Virus record (IMG/VR): IMGVR_UViG_3300034004_000012
Span: 1 to 28,534 of that record
DNA length: 28,534 nt
Source of the DNA: a virus
Direction: 5' to 3' (one strand)
The position numbers and the translations under genes were made by a program. Of the stretch, positions 1,504 through 10,686 are shown one piece after another. Under the pieces are notes generated by a model that saw only the letters and a program-made list of their open reading frames with translations, had not been told where the DNA came from and did no database searches. How positions within the stretch are numbered: the first letter of the stretch is position 1; each line of letters starts with the position of its first letter.

Positions 1504-1929
1504 ATGCCAGCGCTGAAGAACGCCCGCCATGAGCGGTTTGCTCAGGAACTGGCGAAGGGCGCCGCGGCGTCCCACGCCTATGCCGCCGCCGGGTACAAGC
1601 CGAGCGACCAAGCTGCGTCGCGAATGACGAGGAATATCAAGGTTGCGGCTCGTATCGAGGAGTTGAAGGAGCGCGCCGCCGAGCGCACGGTCGTCACGGT
1701 CGCCAATCTGACCGACCGCCTGCTGAAGATTGCGGAGAAGGGCGAGGCCAGCACGGAAGCCCCGATGCTCTCCGTCGCTCGCGCTTCGATCATGGACGCG
1801 GCCAAGCTCAACGGGCTCGTGATCGATCGTACCCAGCGCGAGCTATCCGAGGAGCAGCTCAAGGCGGTGCTTGAAATGGTCGCCGCTCAGCCAGGTGCCG
1901 CGGAGCAGCTGCTCGCCCGACTGACCTGA
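1504..1929 (+). CDS. Terminase small subunit
   Basis: The protein is 141 residues. The N-terminal segment (NARHERFAQELAKGAAASHAYAAAGYKPSDQAASRM) is the typical helix-turn-helix opening of Terminase_2-type small subunits, followed by the helical segment IEELKERAAERTVVTVANLTDRLLKI used for oligomerisation. It recognises phage DNA and directs the large subunit to the packaging site. GGAG lies 6 nt upstream of the ATG. The gene ends three bases before the large-subunit GTG start, so the two are co-expressed as a packaging pair. Confidence 0.88.
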   Translation: MPALKNARHERFAQELAKGAAASHAYAAAGYKPSDQAASRMTRNIKVAARIEELKERAAERTVVTVANLTDRLLKIAEKGEASTEAPMLSVARASIMDAAKLNGLVIDRTQRELSEEQLKAVLEMVAAQPGAAEQLLARLT

Positions 1930-1932
1930 CGG

Positions 1933-3420
1933 GTGGAGCCGCTGTCCATCCTGCGCGAGCCGGCGAATCGGCGGCGGCTGATGCACGGCCTGCGCGCCAT
2001 CGCGGCGGCTGAGCGGGAGTCCGCTGATCAGGCCGAGCACAGGCAACGCAGGGCGCAGAACCGCGATGCCGACGCCGACCGGGAACGCCAGCTCCGGGGC
2101 GAACCGACGCAGGCATTCCAGCGCACCGACAAGCAGGTGGAGCAGGCCGCCGCAGCCGCCGGCGCGGCGCGCCACATCCTCGCCTATGGCGGGTCACGCT
2201 CAGGCAAGACCTTTGGATTTTGCGAGGTGGTGGCCGAGCGCGCGCTGGTCGCGCCAGGCAGCCGCCACCTGATCGCGCGCCGCCACAACATCGATGTCCG
2301 CCAGTCGGTCATGCTCGATACCTGGCCGAAGATGATGCGGCTGGCCTTCCCCGACGTGCCGTACGCGGTGAACAAGACGGACCAGTTCGTCACGATGGGC
2401 GACGCGTCGGAGGTCTGGTTCGGCGGGCTGGACGACAAGGAGCGGGTCGAGAAGATCCTCGGCAAGGAATACGCGACGATCTACTCGAACGAGGTCTCGC
2501 AGATCGCGTACGAGACGATCCTGATGCTGCGGACCCGGTTGGCCCAAGCCGGGTTCCTGCGCGACGGGAGCCGGCTGCCGCTGAAGGCGCTGTACGACCT
2601 CAACCCGACTGGTCGTGGGCATTGGACCTATCGGGAGTTCGTCGAAGGCGTACGCCCAGAGAACGGCGTTCCGATCGAGCCGGGCAGCCGGGCTTGGGTG
2701 ATGATGAACCCGACCGACAATCCGCATCTCCCGCCAGAGTACCACGCCGAGCTTGACGGGCTCCCGGATCGCCAGCGCCAGCGCTTCCGCGACGGCAAAT
2801 ACCTGAGCGAGGTGCCGGGCGCGCTGTGGTCGCTCTCCAATCGTGAGGCCGAGGACGGGAAGGCGGTGCCCGGCATCGAGCGCCTGCGCCGTTCGGAGCA
2901 CCCGCCCCTGTCCCGCGTCGTGGTCGGCGTCGACCCCTCCGGCTCGGACGGCACGGGCGGCGATGCTCAGGGCATCGTTGCGGCGGGCTTGGGCACTGAC
3001 GGACACGCCTATGTGCTGGCGGACCGCTCCTGCCGCTTGTCGCCCGACGGATGGGCGCAGGTGGTAAAAAAGGCGGCGCGGGACTTCGGAGCCGACAAGG
3101 TCGTGGCCGAGCGCAACTTCGGCGGGGCAATGGTCGAGAGCACGATCCGCACCGCGGACGCGAACCTGCCGGTGAAGCTGGTCACTGCGTCTCGCGGCAA
3201 GGTGTTGCGGGCCGAACCGATCGCGGCGCTGTATGAGCAGGGCAAGGTCCACCACGTCGGCAACTTCGCTGATCTGGAGGAGCAGATGACGATGACCACG
3301 ACCGCTGGGTTTCAGGGCGGCGGGTCGCCGGACCGTATGGACGCGCTGGTGTGGGCGCTGACCGAGCTGATGTTGGGCGGGGGGTATGACTACGCGGGGG
3401 CGCTGCGGTCGGCGCTATGA
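1933..3420 (+). CDS. Terminase large subunit
   Basis: The protein has 495 residues and starts at GTG. A Walker A P-loop GGSRSGKT is at residues 86-93, and the Walker B region TIYSNEVS, with its acidic residue at E187, is near 182-189. A C-terminal RNase H-like nuclease is shown by VVVGVDPSG (D334), VVAERNFGG (E393) and SPDRMDALVWAL (D467/D470). The N-terminal 80 residues are a charged, Arg/Glu-rich helical extension. The enzyme cuts concatemeric DNA and drives ATP-dependent packaging through the portal. All expected motifs are present and length is typical, so it should be active. The next gene is convergent, only three bases after the stop codon, with no obvious terminator between them. Confidence 0.95.
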   Translation: MEPLSILREPANRRRLMHGLRAIAAAERESADQAEHRQRRAQNRDADADRERQLRGEPTQAFQRTDKQVEQAAAAAGAARHILAYGGSRSGKTFGFCEVVAERALVAPGSRHLIARRHNIDVRQSVMLDTWPKMMRLAFPDVPYAVNKTDQFVTMGDASEVWFGGLDDKERVEKILGKEYATIYSNEVSQIAYETILMLRTRLAQAGFLRDGSRLPLKALYDLNPTGRGHWTYREFVEGVRPENGVPIEPGSRAWVMMNPTDNPHLPPEYHAELDGLPDRQRQRFRDGKYLSEVPGALWSLSNREAEDGKAVPGIERLRRSEHPPLSRVVVGVDPSGSDGTGGDAQGIVAAGLGTDGHAYVLADRSCRLSPDGWAQVVKKAARDFGADKVVAERNFGGAMVESTIRTADANLPVKLVTASRGKVLRAEPIAALYEQGKVHHVGNFADLEEQMTMTTTAGFQGGGSPDRMDALVWALTELMLGGGYDYAGALRSAL

Positions 3421-3423
3421 TCG

Positions 3424-3894
3424 CTAGCCCTTCAGCGCCCTGATCTCGCTAACAACACCCGCTTCAACGCTCCGGCACAAATGCACTAGGTGTGTCTGGG
3501 TGGCCTTACCGACCGCAAGCCGCCGCTTGTCCCTATCCGGCTCCTTGAAAATCACCTCGATCTCCTGCTCAAATACCTTCCTGTAATCGGAGAAGAAGCC
3601 CAGCTGGTCCGGAAAGTATGTTGCTACAATAGCAAACATCTTCCGGTAATCTTCGAAGGCGGGATGCGTGGTTTCAACGGGATCACGATCGAAAGAGAGG
3701 AGCCCCATGCCCTTGGAGTTCGACCTCACATTCGCAATTAGAACGAAGAGCTCCTCTCCCTTTTGACGCTTCAGGGTGGCTTGCGCCATCGCATGCTCAT
3801 CCCGTCGCTGTCGCGACTGCATGAACGGCCCGAGATAGGCCCCTCCGAGCGCAAACAGGCCGCCGAGAGCCACGCTAAGGAAATCAGCTGCCAT
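3424..3894 (-). CDS. Accessory membrane-anchored protein of unknown function
   Basis: The predicted protein is 156 residues. I chose the ATG at 3894 because it has a purine-rich site (GAGGGAG) just upstream and avoids overlapping the portal gene; a longer frame to 4008 exists. Residues 5-24 (FLSVALGGLFALGGAYLGPFM) form one membrane segment, followed by a basic SRQRR stretch and a mostly helical cytoplasmic part with no motif I recognise. The gene lies opposite to all neighbouring late genes, and its bases are visibly less GC-rich than the terminase gene. It separates terL from the portal gene, a common site for moron insertion. A superinfection-exclusion or host-modifying role is possible but unsupported. 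Confidence 0.65.
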   Translation of the reverse strand: MAADFLSVALGGLFALGGAYLGPFMQSRQRRDEHAMAQATLKRQKGEELFVLIANVRSNSKGMGLLSFDRDPVETTHPAFEDYRKMFAIVATYFPDQLGFFSDYRKVFEQEIEVIFKEPDRDKRRLAVGKATQTHLVHLCRSVEAGVVSEIRALKG

Positions 3895-3967: not shown

Positions 3968-6400
3968 ATGGCCGCCCTCCTCCGACGCATCGCCGACGGC
4001 CTCACCAACGTGATAACGGGCCTCGGGACCAGCGCCGACGCGCGCCGCGGTCGCGCCTACACCCCCAACATCATCACCGAGGACCAGGTCGCGGCCGCCT
4101 ATTCAGGCTCCGCGATGCTCCGCAAAGCGATCCGCATTCCCGCGCTCGACATGACGCGGGAGTGGCGCGATTGGCAGGCCGAGGCCAAGCAGATCGAGGC
4201 GCTGGAGGCCGAGGAGCGCCGCCTGAGCGTGCAGGCCAAGGTGCTGCAGGCGGAGGTGCTGCGCGGGCTCGGTGGCGGTGCGCTGATCCTTGGCGCGCCC
4301 GGCAACCCCGCCTCCCCGATCGGCGCAGTCGGCAAGGGCGGGCTGGCCTACCTCCACGTGGTCTCGCGCTGGCAACTCGGCCTCGGTCGGCAGGTCATGG
4401 ATCCCGCTGACCTGCTATTCGGCGGACCCGAGCACTTCACGCTCAGCACGACCGGCGGTCAGGTCCAGCTCCACCCCTCGCGCGTGGTCGCGTTCCGGGG
4501 CGAGCCGCTGCCGCTCCACACCGCCATCATGGGCGACGACTGGTTCTGGGGAGATGGCCGCGTCGGCACGCTGATCGACCCGGCGATGAACCTGGACGAG
4601 GCGCTGGCCAGCTTCGCCGCGCTGATCAAGGACGCGCGCAATATCGACATCGGCGTGCCCAAGCTGATGGAGATGGTCGCCACCGTCGATGGCGAGGCGA
4701 CGCTGACCAAGCGGCTGCAGCTCGTTGCGGCGGGTCAGTCCGTGATCCGGGCGACCGTGTACGACGCCGGCGATGGTGAGGGTAAGGGCGGCGAGACGAT
4801 CAGCCGGCATCAGGTGACCTGGACCGGCATACCGGACGTCATCAGCGCCTATGCCCAAGCGCTGGCGGCCGCGTCGGATATCCCCGTCACACGGCTGTGG
4901 GGCACGTCGGCGAAGGGCCTGAACGCCACCGGAGAAGGCGACGACCGCGACTGGAACAAGATGGTCGGAGCGCGGCAGCGCATCGAGCTGCGCCCCTGCC
5001 TCGATCAGATCGATGCGTTGCTGATCCCGTCGGCGCTCGGCTCCCGGCCGGCAGAGATCTGGTGGAAGTTCGCGCCGCTCTCGATCCCGACCGAGAAGGA
5101 AGAGGCCGATCGCTTCAAGACCACGATGGAGGCGGCGGAGAAGCTGCAGACCACCGGCGCGATTCCGGACGTCGCCTTCACCAAGGGCATGCAGAACCTC
5201 ATGAGCGAAGAGGGCTGGATGCCCGGCCTCGACGCTGCGCTCGCCGAGCTGCCTGAAGATGAGCGGTTCGGATTGGGGCAGGACGATCTGGACGCGGACG
5301 AGCCGGACCCAAGCATGCTGCAGGCCGCGAATGAGAACGACCCGGTCGTGCCACGCGCGCGTGCCGCTGCCGATCGCCGGTTCACCGATGCCGCACCGCG
5401 CACGCTATACGTGCAGCGCAAGCTCCTCAATGCGGCCGACCTGATCCGCTGGGCCAAGGCGCAGGGTTTCGAGACAACCACGCCGGCCGACGAGATGCAC
5501 GTCACGATCGCGTACTCGCGCCAGGCGCTGGACTGGATGCAGATCGGGGCGGACTGGTCGAGCGATGCGGCCGGCCACCTCACCGTCGCCGCCGGCGGGC
5601 CGCGCATCGTGGAGCCGCTCGGCGATAAGGGCGCGGTGGTGCTGCTCTTCGGTTCGCAGGACCTGACCTACCGTCATCAGCGCATCCTTGAAGCGGGCGC
5701 GAGTTTCGACTTCGCCGAATACCAGCCGCACGTCACGATCACTTATTCGGCACCACCGGGTTTTGACCCGTCGAAGGTCGAGCCATTCGTCGGGCCCCTG
5801 AAGTTCGGGCCGGAGCTGTTCAGCGAGATCGACGAGGATTGGGCCAGCGGCATCACGGAAGACCAGGAGGTGGGCGACAGGCCGGGCCTCCCTTTCGTTG
5901 ATGCGAAACGGACGACCAAGGCGGGCCGGCTCGCCCGTCGCGTGGTCGGCAAAGGGTTCGATGTCGATCAGCCGCGCGACCGGCACGGCAAGTGGATACC
6001 CGCTGGGGCGCGAAACCTAATCTCCGACGCTGCAGCCGGGCGGACATCGGGCAAGTCCGTCGTGATCGGCAGGGTTGGCGCGCGAGCTGAGCGGATGGCG
6101 TCCCGCGCCGGCGCGTCGATTGCCGATAAGTCCGTCTCGCTGGACCCGAGCATGACTCGCCACATCATCATCCGGCACGGGGCCGAGCGGCGCTCCGGTC
6201 AGAAGAGCGTCCGAGCTGGGGATATCGCCGCTGCCGCCACCTTGCTCAACGCGGCTCGCACGATGCGCCGGGGACGCCCCGCGAAGAACGGTGCAGCGCG
6301 CTTCTCGACGATGACGATCTCCAAGGGGCAGCGGATCTACGCCGTCTTCGAGGCGCGCAAAACGACGGTGGCCTTGGTCACGATGTGGGTGCGGAAATGA
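3968..6400 (+). CDS. Portal-type protein fused to Acb1-like 2H phosphoesterase and PBECR-like nuclease
   Basis: The protein is 810 residues, nearly twice a simple portal. Residues 1-430 resemble the DUF1073 portal group (NIITEDQVAAAYSGSAMLRKAIRIPALDM; DIPVTRLWGTSAKGLNATGEGDDRDWN). Residues about 475-625 hold two H-x-T motifs, MHVTIAYS (H511/T513) and PHVTITYS (H588/T590), the signature of 2H phosphoesterases such as the anti-CBASS enzyme Acb1, which degrades cyclic oligonucleotide signals. After a DQPRDRHGKW linker (667-676), residues 690-810 (HIIIRHG at 732-738; ISKGQRIYAVFEARK; VALVTMWVRK) resemble PBECR nuclease-like domains found at the ends of phage head proteins. The role as portal is established for the N-terminal family; activity of the other two domains here is inferred. 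No Shine-Dalgarno sequence precedes the ATG. Confidence 0.85.
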   Translation: MAALLRRIADGLTNVITGLGTSADARRGRAYTPNIITEDQVAAAYSGSAMLRKAIRIPALDMTREWRDWQAEAKQIEALEAEERRLSVQAKVLQAEVLRGLGGGALILGAPGNPASPIGAVGKGGLAYLHVVSRWQLGLGRQVMDPADLLFGGPEHFTLSTTGGQVQLHPSRVVAFRGEPLPLHTAIMGDDWFWGDGRVGTLIDPAMNLDEALASFAALIKDARNIDIGVPKLMEMVATVDGEATLTKRLQLVAAGQSVIRATVYDAGDGEGKGGETISRHQVTWTGIPDVISAYAQALAAASDIPVTRLWGTSAKGLNATGEGDDRDWNKMVGARQRIELRPCLDQIDALLIPSALGSRPAEIWWKFAPLSIPTEKEEADRFKTTMEAAEKLQTTGAIPDVAFTKGMQNLMSEEGWMPGLDAALAELPEDERFGLGQDDLDADEPDPSMLQAANENDPVVPRARAAADRRFTDAAPRTLYVQRKLLNAADLIRWAKAQGFETTTPADEMHVTIAYSRQALDWMQIGADWSSDAAGHLTVAAGGPRIVEPLGDKGAVVLLFGSQDLTYRHQRILEAGASFDFAEYQPHVTITYSAPPGFDPSKVEPFVGPLKFGPELFSEIDEDWASGITEDQEVGDRPGLPFVDAKRTTKAGRLARRVVGKGFDVDQPRDRHGKWIPAGARNLISDAAAGRTSGKSVVIGRVGARAERMASRAGASIADKSVSLDPSMTRHIIIRHGAERRSGQKSVRAGDIAAAATLLNAARTMRRGRPAKNGAARFSTMTISKGQRIYAVFEARKTTVALVTMWVRK

Positions 6401-6495
6401 CTGGGATGCCTGATCCGCGAACGACCCAGGCTGTACGGCCGAACCGCCTCCCAGCTGGGGCTGCATATACCATTGCGAGGGTGAAGGATCAATGA
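6397..6495 (+). CDS. 32-codon bridging ORF between portal and next gene
   Basis: The ATG overlaps the portal stop (ATGA at 6397-6400), and its own TGA overlaps the ATG of the next gene (ATGA at 6492-6495), so it joins both genes by two start-stop overlaps. The peptide begins MTGMPDPRTTQAV and ends YTIARVKDQ; no domain is recognisable. The double coupling suggests it is translated, either as a real small protein or as a relay carrying ribosomes to the next gene. A chance open stretch cannot be ruled out. Confidence 0.45.
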   Translation: MTGMPDPRTTQAVRPNRLPAGAAYTIARVKDQ

Positions 6496-6890
6496 CGACG
6501 TTCCACGTCGGTCGCGCGATCGTCACCTTCTACCCCGAAGGCGCGTTCACGACCTACCCCGACGGCGCAACCTTTGCCGCTCAGCCGCACGCCACCCCGC
6601 ACTACCAAGTCATCGCGCACCGCTGCGGCTACGGCGACGACCTGCTGGCGTACTGTCGTGAGCACGAGGTGTGCCGCCACCTGATCGGCGAGGCGCTTTA
6701 CGCCGACGGCCGCTCGCCGGTGCTGTGGAACCTCGCCCACCGGGTCCCGGTCGACGATCGCGAGGCGGCACTGGAGGAGGCGGCGGTAATGACGCTGCAG
6801 CGCTGGCTCCGCGCGGACGAGCGGCCGATCATCGGCGGTGTCGACTGGGATGCGCTGAAGCGCCGCGCCCTAGCGCTGCTGGACGGGTGA
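6492..6890 (+). CDS. Conserved-looking phage protein, unknown function
   Basis: The protein is 132 residues, with an AAGGA site just upstream of the ATG. The N-terminal half is beta-rich with many aromatic residues (FHVGRAIVTFYPEGAFTTYPDG, HYQVIAHRCGYGDDLLAYCREHEVCRHLIGE) and the C-terminal half is helical. Cysteines and histidines cluster around residues 37-62 (H37, H43, C45, C55, H58, C61, H63), which could be a metal site but has no clean spacing. Its place between portal and MuF-like gene suggests a head or head-assembly function. I do not recognise the family. Confidence 0.7.
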   Translation: MTTFHVGRAIVTFYPEGAFTTYPDGATFAAQPHATPHYQVIAHRCGYGDDLLAYCREHEVCRHLIGEALYADGRSPVLWNLAHRVPVDDREAALEEAAVMTLQRWLRADERPIIGGVDWDALKRRALALLDG

Positions 6891-6893
6891 CCC

Positions 6894-7694
6894 GTGCGCT
6901 TCGACCTGCTCGCCCTCGCCCGCCGCGCGACAAACCGACGCCGCCGGACTGTCACCCTGCGGGACGTCGTGCCGCCCGCGGTGCTGGCGACGGACCTGTA
7001 CCGGGCGGTCTACGCGCCGGTCGTCGAGCAGTGGGCGCGCGCAGCAGAACGGCTCGCGGCTGAGTACGCGCGTACGCTGGCGGCCATGACGACGGATGCT
7101 CCCGCCGATCTTGGTACCACGCTGGAGCAAGCTGAGGCCGAGCTGTCGCGCCTGATCCTGCTGCTCCGTCCCGCAATGCGCGTCTGGACACTTCGGGTTG
7201 AGGCATGGCAGCGCGGCAAGTGGGTGGGCGCCGCCCTCGCGGCGTCCGGGGTCAATCTCGCCACCCTGCTCGGGCCGGGCGACGTGCAGGACACGCTGGA
7301 GGCGCTGATCGAGCGCAACGTGGGACTGGTTCGCGACGTCGGCGAGCAAGCCCGGCAGCGAATGGCATCGGCGGTCTTCGAGGGGCTGCGCGCGCGAACT
7401 CCGGCGCGCGAGGTGGCGGCCCAGCTGCGCGAGGCGTCGGCGATGTCGCGGCGCAGATCGGTCAACATCGCCTCGGATCAGCTCACGAAGGCAACCTCGG
7501 CGCTGGCAGACGAACGGCGGCGACAGGCTGGGATAGATGAATGGGAGTGGGTGCATTCCCGCAAGGCGCACCCGCGGTCAGAGCATGTGGCGCGGAACGG
7601 GAAGGTGTACTCGGATACAAGCCCGCCGCCGACGATGCCCGGGCAGGAGCCGTTCTGTGGATGTCGGCAGCGGGCTGTGCTGCGGTTCGACTAA
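6894..7694 (+). CDS. MuF-like minor head protein (head morphogenesis)
   Basis: The protein is 266 residues with a GTG start three bases after the previous stop. A long helical N-terminal and middle part is followed by the diagnostic end: HSRKAHPRSEHVARNGKVY, then TMPGQEPFCGCRQRAVL, the conserved region of Mu gpF/SPP1 gp7 minor head proteins. These bind the portal or internal head and are thought to help early assembly or DNA delivery. The protein ends right after the MuF motif, so it carries no extra toxin domain; the nuclease-like domain sits on the portal-type protein instead. Its end overlaps by four bases the end of the convergent accessory gene. Confidence 0.85.
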   Translation: MRFDLLALARRATNRRRRTVTLRDVVPPAVLATDLYRAVYAPVVEQWARAAERLAAEYARTLAAMTTDAPADLGTTLEQAEAELSRLILLLRPAMRVWTLRVEAWQRGKWVGAALAASGVNLATLLGPGDVQDTLEALIERNVGLVRDVGEQARQRMASAVFEGLRARTPAREVAAQLREASAMSRRRSVNIASDQLTKATSALADERRRQAGIDEWEWVHSRKAHPRSEHVARNGKVYSDTSPPPTMPGQEPFCGCRQRAVLRFD

Positions 7695-8029: not shown

Positions 8030-9124
8030 ATGTTCCTAGCGGACCGCCTTACCCTGGACGCCCCCCGCCGCACCGCGGACGGCTATCTGGCCGTGCGAGC
8101 AAACGCCGCGCGCACGGGCGTCTACCAGTACTCCGGCCGCGAGGTGGATCCCGAGAACGCGCACGGGCTGCGCGACAAGGCCAGCGTAAATGTGCTGCGC
8201 GAGCCGGACCAGGTGTTCGACGCCCGCTCGCTAGGCAGCTTCGTTGGCAAGCCGATCACCGACGATCACCCCACCGTCGCCGTCACCTCCGCCAATTGGC
8301 GTGACCATGCCCGCGGCGTGATCATGGGCGCGGTGAAGGATGGTGATCACGTCGGCTTTGATCTCGCGTTCCTCGACGCGGCCACGATCGCCAAGGTGGA
8401 CGCTGGCAAGGCTGAGCTTTCGAACGGCTACGACTGCAAGCTCGAGTTCGGCTCCTTCAAGGCCGCGGACGGCACCGCCTGCGAGGCGCGCCAGACCAAC
8501 ATCACCGGCAACCACATCGCGCTCGTTGATCGCGGCCGCGCCGGTTCGACCTGCCGCATCGGCGACGCCGCCTCGTGCGCCGCCCTGCCCTTCACCATCC
8601 TCGATCGGGAGCCTTCGATGCCCAAGACCATGTTGATCGACGGCTTCACCGTCGACGTTTCCAACGCCGACACGGCTGAGGCGACGATCAAGACCGTCCT
8701 CGCCGCGCGCGATGCCGCCACCGCCAAGGTTGCCGGCCTCGAGACGGCGGTCGCGACCAAGGACACCGAGATCGCTGGCCTCAAGACCGAGGTGCAGGGG
8801 CTCAAGGACGCGAAGCCTACGCCGCAGCAGCTGCGCGACGCAGCGGCCGCCTATGCGCGCACGGTCGACAAGGCGAAGGCGCTCGGGGTCGCGGTGACGG
8901 ATGCGATGGACGAACCCGCGATCCAGAAGGCCGTGGTCTCCGCCAAGATGGGCGACACCGCCAAGGATTGGACCGCCGACCAGATCGCCGCATCTTTCGC
9001 GGTCCTCACCAAGGACGCGAAGCCGAGCAACCTCGACAACCGCGTTGTGCCGCTCGGAATGCCGCAGAGCTTCGGCGACACCGCCTCCATCCGTGACGCG
9101 GCTCGTGCCGCCAGCCTGAACTAA
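8030..9124 (+). CDS. Capsid maturation protease with scaffold domain (DUF2213-like)
   Basis: The protein is 364 residues. Residues 1-190 show the DUF2213/U35-like prohead protease pattern: ITDDHP (H80), ELSNGYDC (S131) and NHIALVDRGRAG (H162). These residues would form the Ser-His catalytic centre. Residues 197-364 are helical and coiled-coil rich (VAGLETAVATKDTEIAGLKTEVQGLKD), as in scaffolding domains. An internal in-frame ATG with strong ribosome site could also make the scaffold alone. The protease trims capsid and scaffold during head maturation. The gene lies directly before cement and capsid genes, the usual order. It has no Shine-Dalgarno sequence at its own start. Confidence 0.85.
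   Translation: MFLADRLTLDAPRRTADGYLAVRANAARTGVYQYSGREVDPENAHGLRDKASVNVLREPDQVFDARSLGSFVGKPITDDHPTVAVTSANWRDHARGVIMGAVKDGDHVGFDLAFLDAATIAKVDAGKAELSNGYDCKLEFGSFKAADGTACEARQTNITGNHIALVDRGRAGSTCRIGDAASCAALPFTILDREPSMPKTMLIDGFTVDVSNADTAEATIKTVLAARDAATAKVAGLETAVATKDTEIAGLKTEVQGLKDAKPTPQQLRDAAAAYARTVDKAKALGVAVTDAMDEPAIQKAVVSAKMGDTAKDWTADQIAASFAVLTKDAKPSNLDNRVVPLGMPQSFGDTASIRDAARAASLN
8618..9124 (+). CDS. Internal scaffold product from in-frame start
   Basis: ATG at 8618 (residue 197 of the protease gene) is preceded by GGGAG at 8607-8611 with a 6-nt gap, a far better ribosome site than that of the full gene. The 168-residue product begins MPKTMLIDGFTV and consists almost entirely of the helical scaffold part. 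The lambda C/Nu3 pair has the same nested layout. Translation from this start is inferred. Confidence 0.55.
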   Translation: MPKTMLIDGFTVDVSNADTAEATIKTVLAARDAATAKVAGLETAVATKDTEIAGLKTEVQGLKDAKPTPQQLRDAAAAYARTVDKAKALGVAVTDAMDEPAIQKAVVSAKMGDTAKDWTADQIAASFAVLTKDAKPSNLDNRVVPLGMPQSFGDTASIRDAARAASLN

Positions 9125-9135
9125 GGGGACGCCGA

Positions 9136-9579
9136 ATGGCCGTGCTTCAGACCATCTACGACGCCGACCTGGCACCCGGCTATGCCGGCATGGTTGCCAA
9201 CGGCGAGACCTCCAATCGCATCAGCCGGACCTGCGAGGACGCGGCCGGCATCCCTTTCGGTGTGCCGGTTTATCGGGGCGCTGGTGACCATGGCTGCACG
9301 CGCACGCCGGGTGGTCAGTTCCTCGGCATCAGCATCGCGCACGAGGCGCTCGGCTTTCTCGCCGGGCAGACCGTCGACACGTACCCGCAGTACGAGAGCG
9401 TCGCGATCCTGACGCTTGGCGTCATCTGGGTAGCGGCGGGCGAAGCTGTCACCGACGGGGCGGCAGCCTACGATACGGGCGCCGCGATCGTCGACACCGC
9501 CGGCGCGAACGCCCTCACCGGCTTCACCTTCGACACGACCGGGGCGAACGCCGCCGTGGTCAAGCTCGCCAAGCGCTAA
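9136..9579 (+). CDS. Head cement/decoration protein (DUF2190-like, Gp24 type)
   Basis: The protein is 147 residues with an AAGGGGA ribosome site. The pattern fits structural cement proteins: an N-terminal segment with PGYAGMVANGE, a central GIPFGVPVYRG, then VTDGAAAYDTGAAIVDTAGANALTGFTFDTTGANA near the end. Such proteins bind the outside of the capsid and stabilise it. The position between protease/scaffold and major capsid genes supports this. Small size and beta-rich composition agree. Confidence 0.8.
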   Translation: MAVLQTIYDADLAPGYAGMVANGETSNRISRTCEDAAGIPFGVPVYRGAGDHGCTRTPGGQFLGISIAHEALGFLAGQTVDTYPQYESVAILTLGVIWVAAGEAVTDGAAAYDTGAAIVDTAGANALTGFTFDTTGANAAVVKLAKR

Positions 9580-9594
9580 GGGGGCTCGCAACCG

Positions 9595-10686
9595 ATGTTC
9601 ATTACCTTCTCCGACGCCACCGGTGGCCTGTTCACCGACGCCGCGTCGTTCATCACTGCGGATGCCGCCAAGCAGGAGCTCGCGCTCAAGCGTTGGCAGG
9701 CGTCCGACGCTCGCCAGGCGGCGACGTTCGCCGACAAGGCGGAGGGCTTCTTCGTCGACGCCCAGCTCGGCCGCGCGTTCCTGACGCCCCAACTCCATCG
9801 CATCGAGACGGAAGTTTACATGCGTCGGTATCCCAACTTCGACCTCGACGGCATCGTCTCGGTCAACACTGACGGCGACATGTGGGACGTGGGTGTCGTC
9901 TTCTACTCGATGGACGAGGCGGGCCGCGCGGAGTTCCTGAGCGGTAAGGGCTTCGACATGCCGTTCGCCGCGACGAAGATGGACCAGCACACCAGCGGGT
10001 TCCACCTGGCCGGCATCGGCTACGAGTGGACGACGCAGGAGATGCAGCGTGCCGCCAAGCTCGGCCGCGCGCTGTCGAGCGACAAGGCCAACGCGGCCCG
10101 CAAGGCTGCCCAGGTGTTCAAGCGCTCGGTCGCAATGACGGGCCGCACGCCGGGCGCAACCTCGTCCGAGAAGAACATGGTCGGGCTGATCAACAATCCC
10201 GCCGTGCCGCAGGCCAATGTCGCCGCCGACGGCACCGGCAGCAGCACCACCTGGGCGAGCAAGTCGCCGGACCTGATCAGCCGCGACATCTGGGCCGCGG
10301 TCAACGCGATTGAGACGCAGACCGGCGAGACGCACACTGCGACCACCGTCGCGCTGCCGACCGCGAAGCTGCGCTACATCGAGCAGACCCGCATGTCGGA
10401 CACGGGCTCAACGATTCTGGCCTACATTCGGGGTAACCGAGACGGCGGCGAGAACATCGTGTTCAAGCCGATCCGCGAGCTGGCGGGTGCGGGCGCGGGC
10501 GGAACGGACCGCATGGTCGCGTACGACAACAGCCGCGAGGTGGCGCAATTCCACCTCCCCGGTGACCATGAGTTCCTGCCCGCCTTCCAGAAGTCGAGCA
10601 TGACCTACGAGGTGGGCGGCATCATGAACGTCGGCGGCACCGAAACCCGGTTGCCCAAGGCGATCACCTATCGGGATGGGATCTGA
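9595..10686 (+). CDS. Major capsid protein (DUF2184-like)
   Basis: The protein is 363 residues, preceded by AAGGGG. It has no recognisable membrane or enzyme motif. The sequence (FFVDAQLGRAFLTPQLHRIETEVYMRRYPNF; GYEWTTQEMQRAAKLGRAL; FHLPGDHEFLPAFQKSSMTYEV near the end) resembles the DUF2184 group of HK97-fold capsid proteins found with DUF2190 cement proteins. Position after protease, scaffold and cement genes supports this. It should be the most abundant virion protein, making the head shell. Whether the N-terminus is cleaved by the upstream protease cannot be read from the sequence. Confidence 0.85.
   Translation: MFITFSDATGGLFTDAASFITADAAKQELALKRWQASDARQAATFADKAEGFFVDAQLGRAFLTPQLHRIETEVYMRRYPNFDLDGIVSVNTDGDMWDVGVVFYSMDEAGRAEFLSGKGFDMPFAATKMDQHTSGFHLAGIGYEWTTQEMQRAAKLGRALSSDKANAARKAAQVFKRSVAMTGRTPGATSSEKNMVGLINNPAVPQANVAADGTGSSTTWASKSPDLISRDIWAAVNAIETQTGETHTATTVALPTAKLRYIEQTRMSDTGSTILAYIRGNRDGGENIVFKPIRELAGAGAGGTDRMVAYDNSREVAQFHLPGDHEFLPAFQKSSMTYEVGGIMNVGGTETRLPKAITYRDGI

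Follow-up and report, generated by a model that had tools for sequence, protein, structure and literature searches.

Can one viral protein serve as the portal of a phage head and at the same time carry two enzymes, and if so, when would those enzymes work? The question is raised by an ATG-initiated open reading frame of 810 aa in a 28,534-base stretch of DNA (hereafter, the window), which represents one virus record without end repeats. A sequence-only reading of the window had divided the product into a portal, a 2H phosphoesterase with H511/T513 and H588/T590 as its two H-x-T motifs, and a PBECR-like end. We found all three parts, namely PF06381, PF23474 and a PBECR3-type tail, and the two motifs lie at the residues given and are conserved in homologues. 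The features of the window discussed here are collected in Table 1.

Table 1. Positions of the fusion gene, of the parts of its product and of the surrounding head genes in the window.
Feature	Position	Strand	Basis
Terminase small subunit	1504..1929	+	PF03592
Terminase large subunit	1933..3420	+	PF17289, PF04466, PF03237
Fusion ORF, portal + Acb1-like 2H + PBECR3-like	3968..6400	+	Same triple order in L032, L123, L134, L127/L128
Portal body, residues 1-430 (Phage_portal_3 at 40-392)	3968..5257	+	Pfam E 7.9e-86; 8hds phmmer and structural match
Acb1-like 2H phosphoesterase domain, residues 478-627	5399..5848	+	PF23474 E 4.2e-38; 7t26 superposition
First HxT motif, H511-V-T513 (T4 Acb1 H44/T46)	5498..5506	+	Alignment
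Second HxT motif, H588-V-T590 (T4 Acb1 H113/T115)	5729..5737	+	Alignment
Linker, residues 628-703, with D-Q-P-R-D...GKW motif	5849..6076	+	Tail alignment
PBECR3-type C-terminal domain, residues 704-810	6077..6397	+	Pfam, tail alignment, AlphaFold, structural matches
MuF-like minor head protein, without PBECR tail	6894..7694	+	PF04233
DUF2213 protein, scaffold position as in Pam3	8030..9124	+	PF09979
Cement protein	9136..9579	+	PF22758 (E217 gp24/Pam3 gp6)
Major capsid protein	9595..10686	+	PF09950

The portal body is matched by Phage_portal_3 (PF06381) at 288 bits, against a cutoff of 33.8, and the portal family PHROG 146 spans residues 8-626 of the chain. Since PHROG 146 reaches residue 626, the fusion of portal and 2H itself belongs to a standard phage family. 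The closest parallel of known structure is the portal of the Pseudanabaena phage Pam3 (8hds, UQS95074.1), in which a portal is likewise followed by a 2H domain; it matches residues 8-629 of the fusion chain (phmmer E 1.9e-100, over 621 aa) with a structural Z of 25.8. The Pam3 gene order, TerL-portal-minor capsid-scaffold-cement-capsid, is also that of the window, where the head cluster reads TerS, TerL, fusion gene, 132-aa ORF, MuF, DUF2213, cement and capsid. No second portal gene was found with Pfam among the scanned genes of this cluster. As the sole portal between TerL and MuF in an otherwise normal head cluster, this chain most likely serves as the phage's portal, which bears out the earlier supposition that the portal is built from it. 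Given general portal biology and the 12 chains of the Pam3 portal-adaptor complex (8hds), about 12 copies of the fusion chain would be expected per particle.

Between terL and the portal gene lies a minus-strand ORF (3424-3894, about 156 aa) with a G+C content of about 0.56 versus 0.69 around it and a hydrophobic N-terminal stretch; it has no Pfam match and looks like an inserted accessory gene. The 132-aa ORF between portal and MuF (6492-6890, plus strand) has no Pfam or PHROG match. That its product confers immunity to the PBECR domain is unlikely, as clear homologues occur at L019, L030 and L031 with portals that carry neither 2H nor tail.

The middle part of the chain is assigned to the Acb1 family (PF23474) with 130.8 bits, where the cutoff is 27. 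AlphaFold, applied to the full-length chain, predicts this domain with pLDDT blocks of 68-90 over about residues 481-620; residues 433-475 and 624 onward have pLDDT below 50, and the long linkers between the domains are accordingly modelled as disordered. Residues 478-622 of the model superpose on Acb1 of Erwinia phage FBB1 (7t26) with a Z of 16.7 and 2.0 A over 132 residues, and the 2H core, whose absence the sequence-only reading had named as decisive against its proposal, is present. The superposition and the sequence alignment together predict that H511 and H588 face one cleft. Of the 152 distinct rows in the alignment of homologous 2H domains, 148 retain the HxT/HxT tetrad, with T or S at 590; two others carry one substitution each, and the remaining two are fragments of a single broken copy. 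Judged from this alignment, catalysis by the 2H domain is very likely intact. In 94% of 9180 protein pairs, conservation is also higher in the 2H domain than in the portal body (mean 58% versus 42%), in a set gathered partly through 2H motifs and so tilted toward that outcome; this fits the expectation for a working enzyme.

How far the likeness to Acb1 extends into the substrate pocket was read against T4 57B, whose reference sequence holds all nine residues of Hobbs et al. at their stated numbers (PMC9117128). Alignment equates T4 H44, T46, H113, T115, F107 and W147 with H511, T513, H588, T590, F582 and W625, respectively; T4 Y12 corresponds to Y481 through the common LYV motif, where the automatic alignment is two residues off. 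Two of the five T4 base contacts (Y12, W74, F107, E141 and W147) are changed in the fusion chain, W74, which stacks on the base, being replaced by V548 and E141, which contacts adenosine, by S619 with E620 adjacent. Related 2H rows that have position 548 show an aliphatic residue or Met there; at position 619, 97 rows have E, 22 have A and 18 have S. The invariant E616 was considered as the counterpart of E141 and rejected, because it aligns with T4 E138 and S619 aligns with E141. Base recognition thus appears, on alignment, to differ from that of T4 Acb1, and specificity may differ with it. The earlier identification of an Acb1 enzyme therefore stands for the fold and the intact tetrad; with W74 replaced by V548 and E141 by S619, the Acb1-like substrate is one that we infer. 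The Acb1 proteins of T4 and FBB1 (7t26, 7t27) share with the window chain the 2H fold, the HxT/HxT tetrad and the counterparts of Y12, F107 and W147, but they are stand-alone proteins of 152 aa, whereas the window enzyme forms part of a portal and carries V548 and S619. The Pam3 portal, unlike the window chain, has H-x-S as its second motif, a His at the F107-type stacking position, and no third domain.

In the third domain of the window chain, PBECR3 (PF18812) matches residues 704-808 at 16-20.1 bits, below its cutoff of 30; in two homologous triple fusions it scores above the cutoff (L123, 59.1 bits; L134, 45.7 bits), and it falls below again in L032 and L018 (20-23) and in L128 (11.9). Six aligned tails, the others only 22-29% identical to that of the window, share an invariant H-G pair, an invariant D, and a Thr or Ser at the position of T805 near the C-terminus. 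The His of the pair, H737, ends the predicted N-terminal helix (727-737) and is invariant in all six, as T or S is at the T805 position. This H...T/S pattern is the active-site pattern given for PBECR domains in the main text of Iyer et al. (2017; PMC5512222), and H737 and T805 are the predicted catalytic pair. The linker motif D-Q-P-R-D...GKW precedes most of the other PBECR tails too.

Because the full-length AlphaFold model did not resolve the tail, residues 666-810 were modelled separately (pLDDT 88.8, pTM 0.83), yielding helices followed by four C-terminal strands. The best VIA matches of this model are Brucella BrnT (3u97, Z 8.0) and a Salmonella toxin-antitoxin complex (7vd7, Z 7.7), followed by the CDI toxins 7m5f (Z 6.3) and 6cp9 (Z 5.8); further matches include H. 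pylori HP0892, an MqsR complex and a RelBE complex. A Z of about 8 can be reached by a chance arrangement and is weak alone; a BECR/RelE-type fold is persuasive because nearly all of the first eight VIA matches are such toxins. For this model Foldseek by itself returned nothing significant, the tail profile gave one chance match only against the sequences of solved structures, and the C-terminal domain alone as a viral-contig query, as a single sequence or as a three-sequence alignment, drew no relatives; relatives of the tail were reached only through searches with the portal and 2H domains. The PBECR-like end named in the sequence-only reading is supported, with a model nearest to BrnT, CDI and RelE-type toxins and with PBECR3 scores above the cutoff in the homologous chains and below it in the window. 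The fold is common to BrnT, RelE, HigB and CDI-type RNase toxins at a low identity of 7-17%; unlike these toxins, the window domain is tethered to a portal, and no antitoxin was recognised next to it in the window.

To place the fusion among its relatives, we used 199 loci, the window included, gathered by scanning viral and genome contigs with portal and 2H queries, some contigs being counted under two locus numbers. The 2H frame is fused to the same portal family in 164 of the 168 collected, a figure that tells how often 2H is fused and not how often portals carry 2H, the second scans having been led by 2H. The four others are L105, L090, L119 (a broken copy) and L177 (cut by a contig end). 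The first, portal-led scan returned many related portals without 2H, and many related portals have neither 2H nor a PBECR tail. Tails of more than 80 residues occur in a handful of chains only, and the triple portal-2H-PBECR fusion is rare, being found at five distinct loci: the window, L032 (on the same contig as L126), L123, L134 and L127/L128 (identical tails). On a FastTree portal tree, a rough count requires at least 10 changes in the presence of 2H and at least 5 in that of PBECR, which fits accessory modules and gives a picture of modules gained and lost at the portal C-terminus.

Variant arrangements were seen in the same collection. L018:3172-5157 encodes a portal, its body about 50% identical to that of the window, that lacks 2H but ends in a PBECR3-like tail. 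L035:509-2890 and L037:3-2228 each encode one chain in which a Peptidase_S78 prohead protease stands between a portal and an Acb1-type 2H. At L090:5866-6870, on a contig binned as Candidatus Methanoperedens, an Acb1-type 2H is fused to an XkdF-like Peptidase_S78_2 and adjoins MuF. L105:4711-8048 is an independent fusion of 2H to a Mu-type portal (PF06074) in which the first catalytic His is Tyr, and the next gene encodes a MuF with a PBECR2 domain. The portal-2H chain at L120:2501-5236 ends in a different tail of 245 aa, for which no Pfam family was matched and which is not PBECR by the tail profile. Rhizobium phage RHph_N28_2 has a PBECR-like frame immediately after its portal, overlapping a gene that is annotated separately. 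Roseobacter phage DSS3P8 gp129 (L201, KT870145.1 103924-104376), annotated as a prohead protease, was considered as a further fusion and set aside; it is a short stand-alone protein with a 2H match over most of its length, and its label is probably wrong.

The fusion of portal and 2H is not new, having been published in 2017 and being present in PHROGs and the PDB. The main text of Iyer et al. (2017; PMC5512222) already describes pairwise fusions of 2H and of PBECR to portal or MuF, and proposes that they act as RNases or break down nucleotides used in defence. That main text makes no mention of a chain with all three parts, portal-2H-PBECR; within the literature text examined, this rare chain is apparently undescribed.

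What might such a chain do? We consider it reasonably probable that it is a portal subunit with a 2H cyclic-nucleotide phosphodiesterase and a PBECR3 RNase that act late, in the producing cell. The portal part would build a 12-subunit ring, and flexible linkers would attach the 2H and then the PBECR3-type (RelE/BrnT-like) domain to the portal C-terminus, from which the enzyme domains would hang into the capsid interior. In portals generally, the C-terminus is located at the crown, within the capsid, and the protein stays there instead of being injected. The 2H domain would most likely hydrolyse cyclic di- or trinucleotide alarm signals of the CBASS type by metal-independent HxT/HxT catalysis, and the PBECR domain would most likely cleave RNA by means of H737 and T805. 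For 2H, the likeliest time of action would be the late phase, when portal is made in bulk, before or during assembly. CBASS signals are broken down by T4 Acb1 and by the products of nine further acb1 genes, an activity timed to coincide with CBASS setting in late (PMC9117128); together with a report, cited in PMC12409349, that a prohead protease interacts with a CBASS sensor, this timing makes late action of a portal-borne 2H the more likely. That related 2H domains are joined to other head proteins too (L105, L090, L035) also speaks for the favoured reading.

The main rival to late action is that a maturation protease cuts 2H and PBECR off the portal inside the capsid and that both are ejected with the DNA to act at the start of infection. 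We think this unlikely on balance, though several observations are in its favour. Fusion of an effector to portal or MuF is a proposed signature of packaged effectors in the main text of Iyer et al. (2017; PMC5512222); the direct fusions of 2H to prohead-protease domains at L035/L037 and L090 would suit such a release, as would the long linkers predicted to be disordered. In Pam3, moreover, 442 of the 621 portal residues are in the atomic model, the structural alignment stops at chain residue 401, and the 2H domain (chain residues 462-619) is missing from the model, so that it is either flexibly tethered or cleaved. A flexible tether, however, explains the missing density equally well, and the match of T4 Acb1 activity to late CBASS onset means that early delivery is not needed. 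The suggestion of the sequence-only reading that the enzyme could act early in infection is hence possible but unsupported: portals stay in the capsid, the Pam3 model is without 2H, and to act early the domain would have to be released and ejected. Still less likely, in our estimate, is a carrier of two enzymes, in which maturation proteolysis would release a signal-degrading enzyme and an RNase into the capsid, twelve of each, and these, ejected with the DNA, would disarm nucleotide-signalling and RNA-based defences before phage gene expression.

Late action by a portal-borne enzyme leaves its substrate to be weighed. Rather than countering CBASS, the 2H domain might be an RNA-processing phosphodiesterase, akin to a 2'-5' RNA ligase or Usb1, perhaps working with PBECR on RNA ends; of the readings considered so far we give this one the least credence. 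A weaker match to 2_5_RNA_ligase2 over the 2H stretch, the label 'RNA ligase' that PHROG 755 places on 2H, the predicted RNase next to it and the two changed base contacts all speak for it, and an RNase role is among the options in the main text of Iyer et al. (2017; PMC5512222). Against it, PF23474 leads 2_5_RNA_ligase2 by about 109 bits, T4's own Acb1, 57B, carries the label 'RNA ligase' too, and the best enzyme structures matched by the domain are FBB1 Acb1 and the BCSR5 phosphodiesterase. A structural or regulatory role for the appended domains, in which they might plug or order the DNA close to the portal crown and their catalysis would be vestigial, might be suggested by their permanent attachment, in the gene product, to a structural ring, but is very improbable, given a catalytic tetrad nearly invariant while the portal body diverges, a PBECR His and C-terminal Thr/Ser kept in divergent tails, and the many related portals that lack both domains, neither of which is thus needed for a portal as such.

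On the favoured reading, in which portal-borne 2H and PBECR3 domains act late in the producing cell, a counter-defence enzyme would be tied to an essential virion protein, and the enzyme dose would therefore follow virion production. The Pam3 structure raises the question of whether its unseen 2H domain is kept on the portal, cut free or carried into the next host. If portal-borne 2H domains do degrade CBASS signals, many records annotated plainly as 'portal protein' would hide an anti-defence enzyme.
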